Origin: a virus
Reading direction: 5' to 3' (one strand)
Length of the DNA stretch: 38,293 bases
IMG/VR virus record: IMGVR_UViG_3300048908_000089
Span: 1-38,293 of that record
Shown here: positions 10,442 through 29,466 of the stretch, in pieces
Position numbering within the stretch: position 1 is the first letter of the stretch
Layout: every line of letters begins with the position of its first letter
Translations under genes and position numbers: made by a program
The notes under the pieces: generated by a model
The model's database searches: none
The model's input: the letters and a program-made list of their open reading frames with translations, nothing else
Told to the model about the DNA's origin: nothing

Positions 10442-12411
10442 TGGCCGGCTGGCAAGACGCACCTTTGATTACAGCAGGCAGCAGCAAAGGAAAAGCGGCC
10501 TGGGAAGACGCGCCGGTTGTCGGTGCAGGCGCACCCCCGCCCACTCCGCCGGCGCAGCCTCCGCAAAGCATGGCGGAGTTTGTCGGCGGTAACCTGGCGA
10601 AGGGTGCGGCGCAAGTCGCGGGCATCCCGGCGGCAGTCGGCAGCCAGTTGCTTGCGGCTACAGAGACGCCGGGGGAAGAGAAGTTCCGCGCGCTCATCAA
10701 GGCACCCGCACCTAAGCGTTCGGACTCCGCTATGGCCGGTAGTCAGGAGCATATCGAAGACCTGTTGCGGCAGCACGGCGTCATTACGCAATCCGCTGAA
10801 CCGCGCACAACGGCGCAGAAGTACGGCGCAGCCGCTTTACAGGCGCTTCCTTCTGCTGCCATTCCCGGCGGCGGGGCGTCCGCCTTGTCGCGCGTAGGCG
10901 CAGCCGTGGGCGGCGGACTCGGCGGCGAAGCCGGGCGCCAGATCGGCGGAACGCCGGGGCAGATCGCGGGTTCACTGATCGGCGGCGCGGCGGGTGGGAT
11001 GGCCGGCGCCGGGCGAGGCATCCCGAAACCGCCTAGCGAAGCCGCGCGTGCGTCGCAGGCATCCGGTATTCCGCTTACGTTAGGGCAGGAGACAGGCAGT
11101 AAGGCGCTTACCTTCACAGAGAATACGTTGCGCGATCTATTCCCGTCCGCCGGCACCGCGCACGCGGACGAATTGGCACAGGTCACGGCGGGCGCGAAGC
11201 GCGTCGATGATCTCGCAAGCGCGATGGGCCGCGCGACTGCGGACCCGGAAGCAATCGGCAACCAGTTACGCTCATCCTACAAAAACACCGTCGAGAACAT
11301 CGACAAGTTACGCAGTTCGCAGGCCGCAACCGACTACGGCGCGGTCCGTTCGCTGGCAGCGGGCAAGCCGGTTATCGGCTACAAAAACACGTTGGACACG
11401 CTGGACAAGATAATCGCGGAGAACAAAAACGTCCCGACCGGCGACGCGCCGAAGATCGTGAAGCAGGCGCAACAGGCAAAGGATTTGCTGGCGAAGCAAG
11501 GCACGGCCACGGTTGAGGACGCGATGAAGACGCGCAGCGCATGGGGGAAAGCCTCACGTCGCACCGGCAACGTGTTCTCCGACATTGACCAGAACGCGAA
11601 TCAGGTCTACGCAAAGCGCCTGTTTGGCGCCATCAATCAGGATTTTAATGACGCCTCGAAAGGCGGAACGCCTATCGCGCAGGCTTTGGCAAAAGCGAAC
11701 CAGAATTACGCGAAAGCTTCGCAATCGATCGATTTCATCAAGAAATCCGCGCTCGGAAAGCTGCTAGGTGAAGACGTGACTGACGCGGCCTTCACGGGCG
11801 CTACGGCGTCCACCAAGGCGCCGGAACTGATCGCAAAGCGGTATCTGAACATGAATCCGAGCGAGGCCAAATCGGTGACTTCGATTCTTCAGCAGCACGA
11901 CCCTCAAACGCTTCAGGACGTGAAGTCTTTCGTTTTGCGGAATGGCCTGGAGGCGGCAAAGAATGACGTACCCGGCGCGCCACCAATCTCGTTCGCAAAG
12001 TTCCGCAAGGAAATCGACAAGGTACAACCTAAGCTTGCTGAAATGGGCTTCACGAACAAAGAGATAAAGGACATCAAGGACGTTACCGACACGATGGCGC
12101 GCGCGGGCGATAAGACGGGCGTCAACACGTCCAAGACTACGGGCGTCGCGCACCTTGCCAGTCTCCCCGCGCTCGCGATCTCGCACCCTATGGCGGCAGT
12201 CGGCGCCGTTGTGACGCCTTACGTTGCGTCCAAGGCGTTGCTGACGCAACAGGGCCGCGATCTGCTGCGCAAAGCCTACAGCGCGGCGAACGGCAAAGCG
12301 CAGTCGGCGGCAGTCGGCGCGCTGCGCGCGCAGTACGGACAGCCTATTGATCGCGGTGGTCGGACGAGCCCGCAACCCACCAGCACACAATTAGCATCAC
12401 CGCCGCAATGA
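10441..12411 (+). CDS. Large internal virion / DNA-ejection protein
   Basis: This 656-residue protein is the largest of three consecutive ejection-type proteins. The N-terminus has two copies of a W-x-D-A-P motif (AGWQDAPLI and AAWEDAPVV), a short peptide repeat often seen at the start of such proteins. Residues about 45-185 include Gly/Ala-rich hydrophobic segments (GGGASALSRVGAAVGGGLGG, IAGSLIGGAAGGMAG) that could insert in membrane. Residues about 200-530 are charged helices. A final Ala-rich hydrophobic stretch (LASLPALAISHPMAAVGAVV) lies near residue 580. No lysozyme or transglycosylase motif was seen. The C-terminal coding region overlaps a small leftward gene on the other strand. Confidence 0.65.
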   Translation: MAGWQDAPLITAGSSKGKAAWEDAPVVGAGAPPPTPPAQPPQSMAEFVGGNLAKGAAQVAGIPAAVGSQLLAATETPGEEKFRALIKAPAPKRSDSAMAGSQEHIEDLLRQHGVITQSAEPRTTAQKYGAAALQALPSAAIPGGGASALSRVGAAVGGGLGGEAGRQIGGTPGQIAGSLIGGAAGGMAGAGRGIPKPPSEAARASQASGIPLTLGQETGSKALTFTENTLRDLFPSAGTAHADELAQVTAGAKRVDDLASAMGRATADPEAIGNQLRSSYKNTVENIDKLRSSQAATDYGAVRSLAAGKPVIGYKNTLDTLDKIIAENKNVPTGDAPKIVKQAQQAKDLLAKQGTATVEDAMKTRSAWGKASRRTGNVFSDIDQNANQVYAKRLFGAINQDFNDASKGGTPIAQALAKANQNYAKASQSIDFIKKSALGKLLGEDVTDAAFTGATASTKAPELIAKRYLNMNPSEAKSVTSILQQHDPQTLQDVKSFVLRNGLEAAKNDVPGAPPISFAKFRKEIDKVQPKLAEMGFTNKEIKDIKDVTDTMARAGDKTGVNTSKTTGVAHLASLPALAISHPMAAVGAVVTPYVASKALLTQQGRDLLRKAYSAANGKAQSAAVGALRAQYGQPIDRGGRTSPQPTSTQLASPPQ

Positions 12412-25796: not shown

Positions 25797-25832
25797 GAAC
25801 GTCCGATGCTGTCCTAACAAAGGAGATGTCCC

Positions 25833-26009
25833 GTGCTGATCCCGATTGCCGATGTTCTGGCGCTTATCCCTGTCTCCCGTTCGACCCTCTATCTGTGGAT
25901 GGAGAAAGAGGACTTCCCGCGCGCGGTCCGCATTGGTGGGCGCGTCTTCTGGAAACTCAGCGAAATCGAAGCCTACGTCGATTCGAAACAAGACAAGACG
26001 GAGGCGTGA
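25833..26009 (+). CDS. AlpA-like excisionase/regulator, MerR-type HTH
   Basis: GTG 25833 behind AAAGGAGATGTCCC gives a 58-residue protein. It has the AlpA/excisionase pattern: VLIPIADVLALIPVSRSTLY (HTH with SRSTLYLW recognition helix), then MEKEDFPRAVRIGGRVFWKL (wing) and a terminal helix SEIEAYVDSKQ. It is longer than nothing but under 60 residues and easily missed. The next gene overlaps by one base (TGATG). No integrase is present in the window, so a transcriptional or replication-control role is more likely than excision. Confidence 0.75.
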   Translation: MLIPIADVLALIPVSRSTLYLWMEKEDFPRAVRIGGRVFWKLSEIEAYVDSKQDKTEA

Positions 26010-26752
26010 TGGTCAAGGTCCTCGTGCCAGTGTCCGGCGGTAAGGACTCGCAGGCATGTCTTGAACTCGCTGTCAAGCTGTTCGGCGTTGACGATATACG
26101 GGGCTTATTCTGCGATACGCAGTTCGAGCATCCGATCACCTACCAGCATATCGAATGGATGCGAAACCACTATGGGGTACAGATCGACAGGGTATCAGGC
26201 GGAACCGTGCTCGAAAAATCTGTAAAGTACGGACGTTTTCCCGGCGGCGGTGCTCGCCATTGTACAGACGAACTTAAGATTCGAGAGACACGGATATATT
26301 GTAAAGCGCTCGCTGAAATGCAAGGCGGCTTCGAAGTGTGGTACGGAATGCGCAGCGCTGAAAGCGATGAGCGTAAAAAGCGATACGCGGACAAAATTTC
26401 AGAAGACCTGTACGAGCCACACGAAGTCATGCCCGGAAAGTATCCCAAATATCTTGGCAGGATGGGCGTGCGCTTTCGTCTCCCGATTCTGGACTGGTCG
26501 AAAGAACAGGTAATGGCGGTACTCGACGGGCGTGAAAACCCGCTATATCGTGCCGGCTTTCCACGTGTGGGCTGCTTCCCTTGCCTGGCGTCAGGCGACC
26601 GCTTCAAAGAGATGGCGTTCCAGTTTGATGACTTCGGGCGCCGGCAGTTCGTGGACGTGCAAACTATTTCCGTAGAAATCGGAAAAAGCATCTGGACCTC
26701 CAAAGGCGGGAAAGAACGTAACGAGGGGGGCTGCGCGATATGCAATATCTGA
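26009..26752 (+). CDS. PP-loop ATPase, PAPS-reductase-like
   Basis: This 247-residue protein starts at ATG 26009 (MVKVLVPVSGGKDSQACLEL), overlapping the AlpA gene stop; a longer reading from 25826 is an artefact. The PP-loop is SGGKDS (residues about 9-14). Typical PAPS-reductase segments follow: GLFCDTQFEHPITYQHIEWM, GARHCTDELKIRETRIYCKA and FEVWYGMRSAESDERKK. Cysteines cluster at the C-terminus (GCFPCLASGDRF and GGCAICNI), possibly for metal or iron-sulphur. Family members activate sulphate or modify nucleotides and bases. The phage substrate is unknown; with no dnd genes beside it, phosphorothioation is not supported. It is followed by the primase gene, overlapping by 13 bases. Confidence 0.75.
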   Translation: MVKVLVPVSGGKDSQACLELAVKLFGVDDIRGLFCDTQFEHPITYQHIEWMRNHYGVQIDRVSGGTVLEKSVKYGRFPGGGARHCTDELKIRETRIYCKALAEMQGGFEVWYGMRSAESDERKKRYADKISEDLYEPHEVMPGKYPKYLGRMGVRFRLPILDWSKEQVMAVLDGRENPLYRAGFPRVGCFPCLASGDRFKEMAFQFDDFGRRQFVDVQTISVEIGKSIWTSKGGKERNEGGCAICNI

Positions 26753-28749
26753 AACAGTACGGCGAACAGCTGGTCGCGCTCGGCTACACGGTGCTTCCGA
26801 TCCGGCCCGGTACCAAGCGCCCGGATCTGAAGAACTGGCCGCAGCATGAGACGACAGCCGCCGACGTGGTTGCATGGTACAGCAACGGGCGCGCCGGCCA
26901 CGGGGCGGGCATCAACGCGCGCAACGCTCCCGCGATTGACGTTGACGTGCTGGATCCGGAAGTCGCACAGCAGATGTCAGACGCGATTGACGCGATCTTC
27001 CCCGGCGAACGGCTGATGACGCGCACGGGGCTCGCGCCCAAGTTTCTGGTTCCGTTCCGGTCTGACGAGCCTTTCCGGAAAATGACTTCTCACGTGTACA
27101 CGGATGGTACAAATGAACACAAGGTCGAAATTCTCGGAGACGGACAGCAGTGGGTTGCCTACCATGTCCATCCCGACACCGAACGCCCGTATAAATGGTT
27201 TGACGGGCTGTCGGATTCTGGAATACGGGAATCATCGCGCGACTCCCTTCCTGAACTCAAGCGAAGCGACGCTCAACGCGTTATTGACGCATTCGAGGTA
27301 CTTGCGGGGCGAATGGTGGAAAAGGGAGCATGGTCCGTCAAAGCCGTGGCGGAACGGGTACTGGTGGATCAGAAACATGATGGCGATCCTTTCGCTGCGT
27401 ACGCCGAACCAACAGACCTGAGCGCCGAACAGGTCACCGCCCTCATCCACAAGGTCACGGACTACGACGACCGCGACCAGTGGTTGCGTATCGGACGCAT
27501 GGTGCATCACCACTTTGCCGGCAGCGAAGAGGGCTTTGAAATGTGGGAAGCCTGGAGCACGAACGGGCAGAAGTACAACGCTGAAGACCAGCGCAGGGTT
27601 TGGGATTCGTTCGGCCATTCCGACAAGCCGGAGACGCTGCGCGCGCTGCTGAAGGAGTTCGGACAGCCGCCGGCAGACAAGGCCGCGCCTACCGAGGCTG
27701 ATCTGAATTTCCGGTTCTATGCGGGCGATGCCTACTCGGAAGACTTCGTTGGCGGACCGGAGCTGGTGGAAGACGTGCTGCCTGAGCGCGGTATCGCGAT
27801 GGTGTATGGGCCGTCCGGCAAAGGGAAAACGTTCTGGACGCTCGATCTGGCGTTCCGCGTGCATAACGGCGTTCAGTGGCGTGACAAGGACGTGAAGCAG
27901 GGCGACGTGATGTACGTGGCGGCGGAAGCCGGACGCGGCATCAAGAAGCGGATTCAGGCTATCAAGGTGCTGAACCCGGAATGGCGCTCACCGTTCATCG
28001 CGGACGCTGCGCCTAACCTGTCCAGCATGACTTCCGTTCAGGCCGTACGCGATGCCGCGCGTGCCGTAGGCGCGCCCGCCATGGTGATTGTGGACACGAT
28101 GTCGGCTTCGTTCGAAGGCGACGATAGCAGCCAGAAGGATGTCGCGCAGATGATCCGCAATCTGAAGATTCTGGCCGACGATCTGCAATGCCTTGTCCTG
28201 TTCGTCCACCACACGACCAAGGACGGCGGCAGCTTCCGGGGTTCTGGCGTGCTCTATAACGACGTGGACGCCGTTCTCGAACTGGAAGCAACGGGAGAAG
28301 GCGCAGACCGGAAACAGTGGGTCACGCAGAAGAAGCACAGGGAAGGTGAAGACGGCAAGGCGTACCCTTTCAGTCTGAAAGTATCCGCGCCGCTTGCGTT
28401 CAAAGCCAACGGCAAGCCGATCACGTCCTGTACGGTCGAACAGGAGAATTACAAACCCGAGCCGAAAAAGGAAGGACGCAAATCACGCTCTGGCGACTTC
28501 GAGACCAGCGCCAACTATCAGAAGGCACGCCACTTCCTCCACATCATCCAGGACATGTGCGGGATGGAAACCGGACTTGCCCTACAGGAGGATGAGGTGA
28601 TCGAAGCTATCCAGAAGGACAAGACAGTGAACCCGATGGAAGAACCAGACTACCCTCTGAAGAAAAATATCATCCCTACGTTGCGGACCCTAGCCTCGCT
28701 AGGTAAGATCAGCAAGGAAGGCCGTATTATAAGGGTTTGCCGACCCTAG
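26740..28749 (+). CDS. Primase-polymerase / RepA-like helicase fusion
   Basis: This 669-residue protein probably initiates and unwinds phage DNA. Residues about 1-175 form an AEP prim-pol domain: KPI-type opening (GYTVLPIRPGTKRPDLKNWP), the catalytic pair D67-x-D69 in APAIDVDVLD, and VEILGDGQQWVAYHVHP with the later active-site residues. Residues about 225-310 fit PriCT-2 (DYDDRDQWLRIGRMVHHHF, SEEGFEMWEAWSTNGQKYN). A RepA/RadA-like AAA ATPase follows: Walker A VYGPSGKGKTFW, Walker B MVIVDTMSASFEG and sensor CLVLFVHHTTKDGGSFRGSG. A charged C-terminal helical tail follows. The stop codon lies inside the first of the tandem repeats just downstream, which links the protein to a nearby candidate origin. 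Confidence 0.85.
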   Translation: MQYLKQYGEQLVALGYTVLPIRPGTKRPDLKNWPQHETTAADVVAWYSNGRAGHGAGINARNAPAIDVDVLDPEVAQQMSDAIDAIFPGERLMTRTGLAPKFLVPFRSDEPFRKMTSHVYTDGTNEHKVEILGDGQQWVAYHVHPDTERPYKWFDGLSDSGIRESSRDSLPELKRSDAQRVIDAFEVLAGRMVEKGAWSVKAVAERVLVDQKHDGDPFAAYAEPTDLSAEQVTALIHKVTDYDDRDQWLRIGRMVHHHFAGSEEGFEMWEAWSTNGQKYNAEDQRRVWDSFGHSDKPETLRALLKEFGQPPADKAAPTEADLNFRFYAGDAYSEDFVGGPELVEDVLPERGIAMVYGPSGKGKTFWTLDLAFRVHNGVQWRDKDVKQGDVMYVAAEAGRGIKKRIQAIKVLNPEWRSPFIADAAPNLSSMTSVQAVRDAARAVGAPAMVIVDTMSASFEGDDSSQKDVAQMIRNLKILADDLQCLVLFVHHTTKDGGSFRGSGVLYNDVDAVLELEATGEGADRKQWVTQKKHREGEDGKAYPFSLKVSAPLAFKANGKPITSCTVEQENYKPEPKKEGRKSRSGDFETSANYQKARHFLHIIQDMCGMETGLALQEDEVIEAIQKDKTVNPMEEPDYPLKKNIIPTLRTLASLGKISKEGRIIRVCRP

Positions 28750-28843
28750 CTGACCCTAGCTGACCCTAGCTGACCCTACAATCTGATGCTGTCGGACCCT
28801 ACGGACCCTACGCACCCTACCCTATAGGGTGCAGGTAGGGTCC
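28742..28843 (+). repeat. Iteron-like GACCCTA array with cruciform; candidate replication origin
   Basis: GACCCTAGC copies start at 28742, 28752 and 28762, with GACCCTAC at 28772: a 10-bp pitch. A second group starts at 28795, 28804 and 28813 (CACCCTAC): a 9-bp pitch. A further copy lies in the gene at 28686. The segment 28803-28819 pairs with 28825-28843 as a 17-bp stem with a 2-base AG bulge and a 5-base loop, containing the palindrome ACCCTATAGGGT. No T-run follows, so it is not a plain terminator. Position after the primase-helicase gene suggests an initiator-binding site. Confidence 0.7.
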
Positions 28844-28868
28844 GCCGGATTTAAGGAGTTATTGAAAA

Positions 28869-29054
28869 ATGATCATCAAATTGTCTTCGCGTTACGGGGA
28901 TGTGTACGTGAACGCTTCAAACATTACGTTCTTCAAACATGGCCAGAACGGAACCCTCATCTTTTTCGGCAATACGGAAGAGAACTACACAGAGGTGGCT
29001 AACAAGCCAGACGAAGTCGCGAAGATGATCGCGGCAAAGGAGAAAGGCAAGTGA
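28869..29054 (+). CDS. Small protein with FlbD-like beta pattern, unknown function
   Basis: This 61-residue protein starts at ATG 28869 behind TTAAGGAGTTATTGAAAA. The pattern (MIIKLSSRYGDVYVNASNIT, then FFKHGQNGTLIFFGNTEENY and a final helix PDEVAKMIAAKE) resembles the small beta-rich FlbD-type fold, but similarity is weak and by eye. It lies just after the candidate origin and overlaps the start of the next gene. Function is unknown. Confidence 0.6.
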   Translation: MIIKLSSRYGDVYVNASNITFFKHGQNGTLIFFGNTEENYTEVANKPDEVAKMIAAKEKGK

Positions 29055-29236
29055 ACCGCGATGACTCAGTGTTGTGCGTATGCTGTGGCCGGGAATTCAG
29101 CGTGCGGTTGCTGGAGCTTGTGAGATGGGAAGGGCCGTTGTGGTGCCAGACGTGTATCGGCAAGGCGGATCAGGAACTGGCAGAGGCTGCACAGCGTGCG
29201 AGGAAGGCGCAGGAGCCGTTTGTAGAGAGGGAGTGA
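29051..29236 (+). CDS. Small zinc-ribbon protein
   Basis: This 61-residue protein starts with GTG 29051, overlapping the preceding stop (GTGA). Cys pairs CVCC (with C9-x2-C12 as likely ligands) and WCQTC form a four-cysteine zinc ribbon, followed by an Ala/Glu-rich helix (KADQELAEAAQRARKAQEPF). Such proteins bind nucleic acid or protein. It is the last gene before the terminator. Function is unknown. Confidence 0.6.
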   Translation: MNRDDSVLCVCCGREFSVRLLELVRWEGPLWCQTCIGKADQELAEAAQRARKAQEPFVERE

Positions 29237-29257
29237 TACGCAGGCAGCAGGAAAGAG

Positions 29258-29284
29258 AAACGGCCCGTTGTGGGCCGTTTTCGT
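29258..29284 (+). terminator. Rho-independent terminator between converging operons
   Basis: AAACGGCCC, loop GTTGT and GGGCCGTTT form a 9-bp stem, followed by TCGTT. It ends the rightward primase operon. In reverse the stem is followed by CTCTTTCC, so it may also stop the leftward mini-operon, less efficiently. Confidence 0.8.
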
Positions 29285-29466
29285 TAGTGGATCGGCGCGA
29301 AGCCGATTGTGGACATCTGAGGGTTGGCCACAAGAAACGAATCGCGGTCCGGGAAGCCAGCGCATTCAGCCAGTTCGTCTGCGCACATCTCCAGCGTAGG
29401 CAGCCCGTGGCATTCGATCGAGCCGATCATTTCGTCGCCAGGGATCAGGATTGCGTATCGGATCAT
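29284..29466 (-). CDS. Third gene of the leftward mini-operon, unknown function
   Basis: This 60-residue protein starts at ATG 29466, one base after the previous stop (TGACATG); GGTG upstream is a moderate SD. It has short strands (IRYAILIPGDEMIGSIECHG) and a helix with acidic residues (LEMCADELAECAGFPDRD), and ends GFAPIH. No family is recognised. A longer frame from 29496 would overlap the second gene. Conservation of order with the two preceding small genes under one promoter supports it. Confidence 0.55.
   Translation of the reverse strand: MIRYAILIPGDEMIGSIECHGLPTLEMCADELAECAGFPDRDSFLVANPQMSTIGFAPIH

Follow-up and report, generated by a model that had tools for sequence, protein, structure and literature searches.

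The origin of pRN1 is a stem-loop just downstream of the gene for ORF904, a PrimPol-helicase, and its sequence diverges while its shape is kept (PMC4234260). At the RSF1010 oriV, iterons lie beside hairpins (ssiA and ssiB) that are used for priming (PMC4234260), and a putative stem-loop origin has been proposed 3' of the gene for the PrimPol-PriCT2 replication protein of phages BIP-1 and BPP-1 (PMC4234260). SaPI Rep and SCCmec Cch2 are helicase-initiators whose C-terminal domain binds iterons directly downstream of the protein's own gene (PMC7581432). In the PLE RepA_N-ori modules the iterons of the origin covary with the initiator's DNA-binding domain, and the modules have been swapped; an origin-targeting nuclease is thought to select such changes and is a possible driver (PMC8263062). 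Here we describe an array of iterons and a palindrome at the end of a phage primase-helicase gene and compare it with these systems.

Results

The repeat array and its terminal hairpin

The window, the whole stretch of DNA that was analysed, is a 38,293-bp IMG/VR virus record. An exact search of both strands found GACCCTA eight times, compared with 1.7 expected and a maximum of six in 100 shuffles. All eight copies are confined to 157 bp (28686-28842) in the 3'-terminal region of a PrimPol-PriCT2-RepA-like helicase gene, and the same search found none in the remainder of the window. The shorter ACCCTA has a single further site, at 12185. The exact plus-strand copies start at the positions given in Table 1, the minus-strand copy occupies 28836-28842, and the in-gene copy is separate from the main array. 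A preliminary description of this DNA had reported four repeats at a 10-bp pitch, and all four are exact matches. For the three at a 9-bp pitch it was right about the first two, and the third (CACCCTA) carries one mismatch. Its placement of the stop codon within the first repeat also holds, as the TAG at 28747-28749 overlaps the repeat at 28742. Several direct repeats at approximately the helical pitch, the arrangement of an iteron origin, adjoin the initiator gene. The Shine-Dalgarno sequence and start of the next gene follow directly 3' of the array.

Table 1. Features of the initiator gene, the array and the nearby downstream ORF in the window.
Feature	Position	Strand	Basis
Initiator gene, 669 aa: PrimPol (PF09250), PriCT_2 (PF08707), RepA/AAA_25 helicase (PF13481), C-terminal winged helix	26740..28749	+	Pfam; winged helix predicted
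Codons of the C-terminal winged helix (residues 585-669), proposed iteron reader	28492..28746	+	AlphaFold2; unit tracking
In-gene GACCCTA copy, within codons of the predicted recognition helix (28660-28698)	28686..28692	+	Exact search
Four direct GACCCTA iterons, 10-bp pitch (28742, 28752, 28762, 28772)	28742..28778	+	Sequence and exact search
Three direct iterons, 9-bp pitch (GACCCTA 28795, GACCCTA 28804, CACCCTA 28813)	28795..28819	+	Exact search
Terminal palindrome/hairpin, arms 28802-28819 and 28825-28844, core CCCTATAGGG at 28820-28829	28802..28844		DNA fold
Small zinc-ribbon-like ORF (CxxC...CxxC) a short distance 3' of the array, not proposed as array reader	29051..29236	+	tblastn over loci

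The array ends in a 17-bp hairpin whose 3' arm carries inverted iterons. Folded as DNA it reaches -20 kcal/mol, compared with -8.7 ± 2.0 for shuffles (z -5.7), and none of 200 shuffles was as good. The near-perfect hairpin described earlier at 28803-28819 and 28825-28843 is thus present, but its arms had to be redrawn and they enclose a small asymmetric internal bulge. The accompanying statement that no T-run would make it a terminator was borne out: a search of the plus strand found neither a U-tract nor a terminator-like site at the hairpin, which does not qualify as a rho-independent terminator. GC skew, suggested as a check for an origin, shows no inflection at 28.7 kb. Skew in the window follows gene direction and is therefore uninformative as an origin marker, speaking neither for nor against an origin. 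No tRNA or tmRNA was found in the window.

The initiator and its C-terminal domain

One fused protein carries the primase, the helicase and the predicted reader domain. The top Foldseek and hmmsearch matches of the helicase are to RSF1010 RepA (1olo and 1g8y; hmmsearch E 6.5e-14 for 1g8y), and the PrimPol domain matches ORF904 weakly, over 32 residues. AlphaFold2 predicts an H1-H2-H3-wing arrangement for the last 85 residues, with pLDDT values of 87-97 over the fold. The best VIA-align match of this domain is the ORC winged helix (Z 8.7), and its structural neighbours are winged helices, including those of ORC and Cdc6; because the fold is common and Z values of about 8 are usual, these matches indicate the fold only. 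Searched by itself, the domain retrieved nothing with E below 0.001 in Foldseek, and hmmsearch against the PDB was non-significant.

A PAPS-reductase-like gene (25826-26752) lies directly upstream of the primase gene in the window, and a PAPS-reductase gene is also found near the primase gene of Roseobacter phage CRP-821.

Distribution of the layout among relatives

In approximately 40 related viral loci, direct repeats at a 9-11 bp pitch are followed by a palindrome built from the same unit, directly after the stop codon of the primase-helicase gene. When array autocorrelation is averaged over loci, lags of 9-11 rank with the highest. The units vary widely and include GACCCTA, GAGCCTA, CTCATTC, GCTGACTTC, GCTGAGGTT, CTCAACCT, GTGACGCTA and others. 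The layout is present in the cultured phages CRP-811, CRP-821, CRP-831, BcepGomr, Rhizobium 16-3, CGphi29 and 1N2-2, and also in the named EBPR siphovirus 5. Ten hairpins from these loci, folded as DNA, gave z values of -3.7 to -7.6. A CTWTAG apex motif, or a near variant of it (CCTAAGG, CCTAAAGG), was found in 39 of 51 loci compared with 8.9 expected from shuffles, a count that includes sites off the dyad centre because the search spanned 150 bp after the stop. Seven matching relative records were searched whole, and in these the paired unit is confined to the site behind the primase gene; in the records tested, each genome has the layout a single time. Helicases that are more distant (26-31% identity) frequently have arrays of their own.

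The layout is not universal, and its absences count against an origin at this site. Arrays are missing from one clade and from several other related helicases, GB2A has none, and BPP-1 has none downstream of bbp29, where the maximum 6-mer count of 3 equals that of shuffles. The array of phi674 is weak.

The search for cultured relatives by DNA similarity returned two short matches and no more. A first scan of bacterial genome contigs confirmed no relative, and a second found distant relatives alone, the best at 38% identity. There were 70 viral matches to the GACCCTA pattern, some of which resemble coding repeats of other proteins.

Other observations were made in these collections. The array-less helicase loci include L120, L124, L125, L133, L139, L146, L149, L152 and L153, several of which have a short TTGCAAT/ATTGCA-like inverted repeat right after the stop. 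GACCCTA repeats in both orientations are found on other viral contigs (L013, L014, L018, L020, L025, L046 and L050). Near position 4120 of L063, on the minus strand, a palindrome is preceded by a head-to-tail run of eleven CAGGACCCTA-type units. On a Diaphorobacter sp. HDW4A plasmid (L158), a CTCCCC/GGGGAG palindrome with the core CCCTAAAGGG lies behind a helicase-like gene of the AAA family that is annotated without PrimPol; this array is weak, being reached by 9 of 500 shuffles. Sister primase loci (L081 and L148) occur on one 79-kb contig, IMGVR_UViG_3300037852_000046, with flanking stretches that are 81-91% identical and with primase C-termini and arrays that differ. The contig represents either tandem prophages or a chimeric assembly.

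Concerted change of the unit

Within each phage the direct copies and the hairpin arms largely agree, whereas the unit differs between phages. Of the 6-mers in the 3' hairpin arm, 36% are common to the phage's own array compared with 7% to the arrays of other phages. Most relatives have an in-gene copy of the unit, and the last ~150 bp of the genes have 6.3 six-mers in common with their own array and 2.0 with those of others. The array of L009 mixes GAGCCTA and GACCCTA and might be an intermediate.

The part of the initiator that tracks the unit

Mantel correlations between the unit and parts of the protein and DNA were calculated for 27 loci and for a non-redundant subset of 19. Over the 27 loci, rho was 0.51 for the C-terminal domain, 0.32 for the helicase and 0.21 for PrimPol. 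The partial correlation of the C-terminal domain with the helicase held constant was 0.46, and the reverse was 0.20. Helix 3 and the wing gave 0.61, compared with 0.48 for helices 1-2 alone. In the non-redundant subset helix 3 and the wing gave 0.555, helices 1-2 0.37 and the helicase 0.07 (not significant). PriCT (0.38) and PrimPol (0.33) also correlate there, helices 1-2 being no higher than PriCT, so the assignment to the domain rests mainly on helix 3 and the wing and on the natural swaps described below.

DNA upstream of the array also correlates with the unit (0.32-0.50, reaching 1.8 kb). Downstream DNA does so within ~300 bp (0.26-0.42), which counts against the origin reading, and from 315 to 915 bp downstream there is no tracking (rho 0.02). 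As the codons of the winged helix adjoin the array, part of the correlation is physical linkage; this proximity, together with a repeat copy lying within the recognition-helix codons, partly confounds the covariation found between the repeat and the initiator's predicted DNA-binding domain. The unit tracks the C-terminal winged helix better than it tracks the polymerase domain or the downstream gene. The latter, the zinc-ribbon-like ORF, was considered as the array reader and rejected: 23 of the 27 loci compared have it a short way 3' of the array, yet its rho is 0.19, against 0.54 for the winged helix.

Natural swaps between relatives

Several pairs of relatives separate the winged helix from the rest of the gene. 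The window and L008 are ~93% identical over long flanks, and the 5' portion of the primase gene is 83% identical, whereas the remainder of that gene, with the C-terminal part of the helicase, and the array are replaced. The window and L009 have a common unit and winged helices that are 73-83% identical, with helicases just 31% identical. The converse is seen in L103 and L104, where helicases are 95% identical, winged helices ~73%, and units different. The helicases of Roseobacter phages CRP-831 and CRP-811 differ at 2 of ~250 residues, and their C-terminal domains are ~72% identical (counted on the alignment). The core of the unit is TATAAA in CRP-831 and TACAAA in CRP-811, found at 10 and 11 places, while the palindrome core is unchanged and CCCTTTAGGG is kept in both. 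CRP-821 has the same winged helix and unit as CRP-831.

Discussion

These features suggest that 28686-28844 is the replication origin of the phage, with iterons to which the initiator, encoded immediately 5' of them, would bind through its C-terminal winged helix. We place the probability of this reading at about 0.77. An iteron origin beside the initiator gene had been proposed in the preliminary description, and it gains support from the layout kept in ~40 relatives and several cultured phages, from its single occurrence per genome in the records tested, and from the tracking of the unit by the winged helix. In pRN1, SaPI and SCCmec, too, the origin that is known or proposed has this position. 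What we infer from these comparisons is direct binding, origin activity, opening of the core and priming there. In the proposed mechanism the winged helix of a PrimPol-RepA-type helicase would bind iterons spaced roughly one turn apart, a spacing that would place the initiator subunits on the same side of the DNA helix. Opening or extrusion of the terminal dyad, which has a CTWTAG core, would then allow the helicase ring to load and the PrimPol domain to lay the first primer there.

Iterons often double as control sites in iteron plasmids, and the array lies just before the Shine-Dalgarno sequence and start of the next gene. It could be an operator, with repeats that serve as binding sites for the initiator or a phage repressor in controlling the operon or copy number and not in starting replication. 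We regard this as unlikely: the array lies at a gene's 3' end, a search of 28300-29400 found no sigma-70-like promoter, and an operator needs less than inverted copies and a conserved palindrome core. A control function could coexist with an origin function of the array. It is quite improbable that the element acts as RNA, with an mRNA hairpin that terminates the primase transcript, stabilises it or governs translation of the following gene. The folded loci do have a stable hairpin after the stop codon, but the U-tract and a terminator match are both absent, and a hairpin leaves the upstream direct repeats unexplained; moreover, the repeats extend into coding sequence in L008, L104 and L134, and direct and inverted copies change together.

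parS and pac sites typically have clustered repeats too, and some mycobacteriophages have parS-like repeats downstream of repA, so that a centromere-like partition site or a packaging site behind the primase gene might be considered. That the unit tracks the winged helix of the primase-helicase makes such a site very improbable, as does the lack of ParA/ParB-like matches among the window proteins scanned, which were part of the ORFs. Neutral expansion of a tandem repeat seeded by the in-gene GACCCTA appears the least probable of these explanations. Most relatives have the in-gene copy that it needs, but among unrelated units and hosts the layout and spacing are maintained, as are the inverted copies and the core, and slippage alone is unable to write the inverted arm. 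Conservation across loci already makes this explanation unlikely.

The origin reading may extend beyond this phage, and here our confidence falls somewhat short of even. The arrays could form a widespread class of phage origin whose short iteron word changes in all of its direct and inverted copies together with a small winged helix. Each sister phage would then have its own replication identity, and the pairs of word and reader would amount to a readable protein-DNA specificity code, exchangeable as one cassette. If so, the origins of many phages with RepA-type primase-helicases could be located by sequence alone, each with its own word-reader pair, and the pairs would be a natural series for how a winged helix chooses its DNA site. 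They would also hint at how closely related phages in one cell could avoid each other's origin, and offer an example in which concerted evolution of direct together with inverted repeats could be tested. In the open-licence literature no description was found of a RepA-helicase-linked, concertedly rewritten iteron-palindrome element as a class.

Comparison with known systems

The closest solved relative of the helicase domain is the hexameric RepA of RSF1010, whose iterons adjoin hairpins as they do in the window. RSF1010 differs in having three separate proteins, RepC, RepA and RepB', with RepC reading the iterons; the window has one fused protein with a RepA-type helicase and neither a separate RepC initiator nor a separate RepB' primase, and its iterons and hairpin have one common unit. 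As in pRN1, a PrimPol-helicase with a C-terminal winged helix is followed by a stem-loop just downstream of its gene, but pRN1 combines an SF3 helicase with an origin that has no iterons, whereas the window has a RepA-type helicase and iterons and a palindrome of one unit. BIP-1 and BPP-1 likewise have a PrimPol-PriCT2 phage replication protein and a proposed stem-loop 3' of its gene; they differ in their SF3 helicase and, for BPP-1, in the lack of a repeat array.

SaPI and SCCmec are similar in having a helicase-initiator, a C-terminal reader and iterons directly 3' of its own gene, binding being predicted in the case of the window. Cch2, however, has its relatives in the D5 helicase family; its primase/polymerase is a separate protein, so that there is no PrimPol-RepA fusion, and the passages of PMC7581432 consulted describe no CTWTAG-centred palindrome. 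The PLE modules resemble the window family in the covariation of initiator DNA-binding domain and iterons and in module swapping; their reader is N-terminal, their initiator is not a predicted primase or helicase, and their iterons are ~30 bp. The origin logic is already known from SaPI, SCCmec Cch2, pRN1, RSF1010 and PLE. To these features the candidate origin in the window adds a RepA-type helicase and a concertedly changing unit common to iterons and palindrome.
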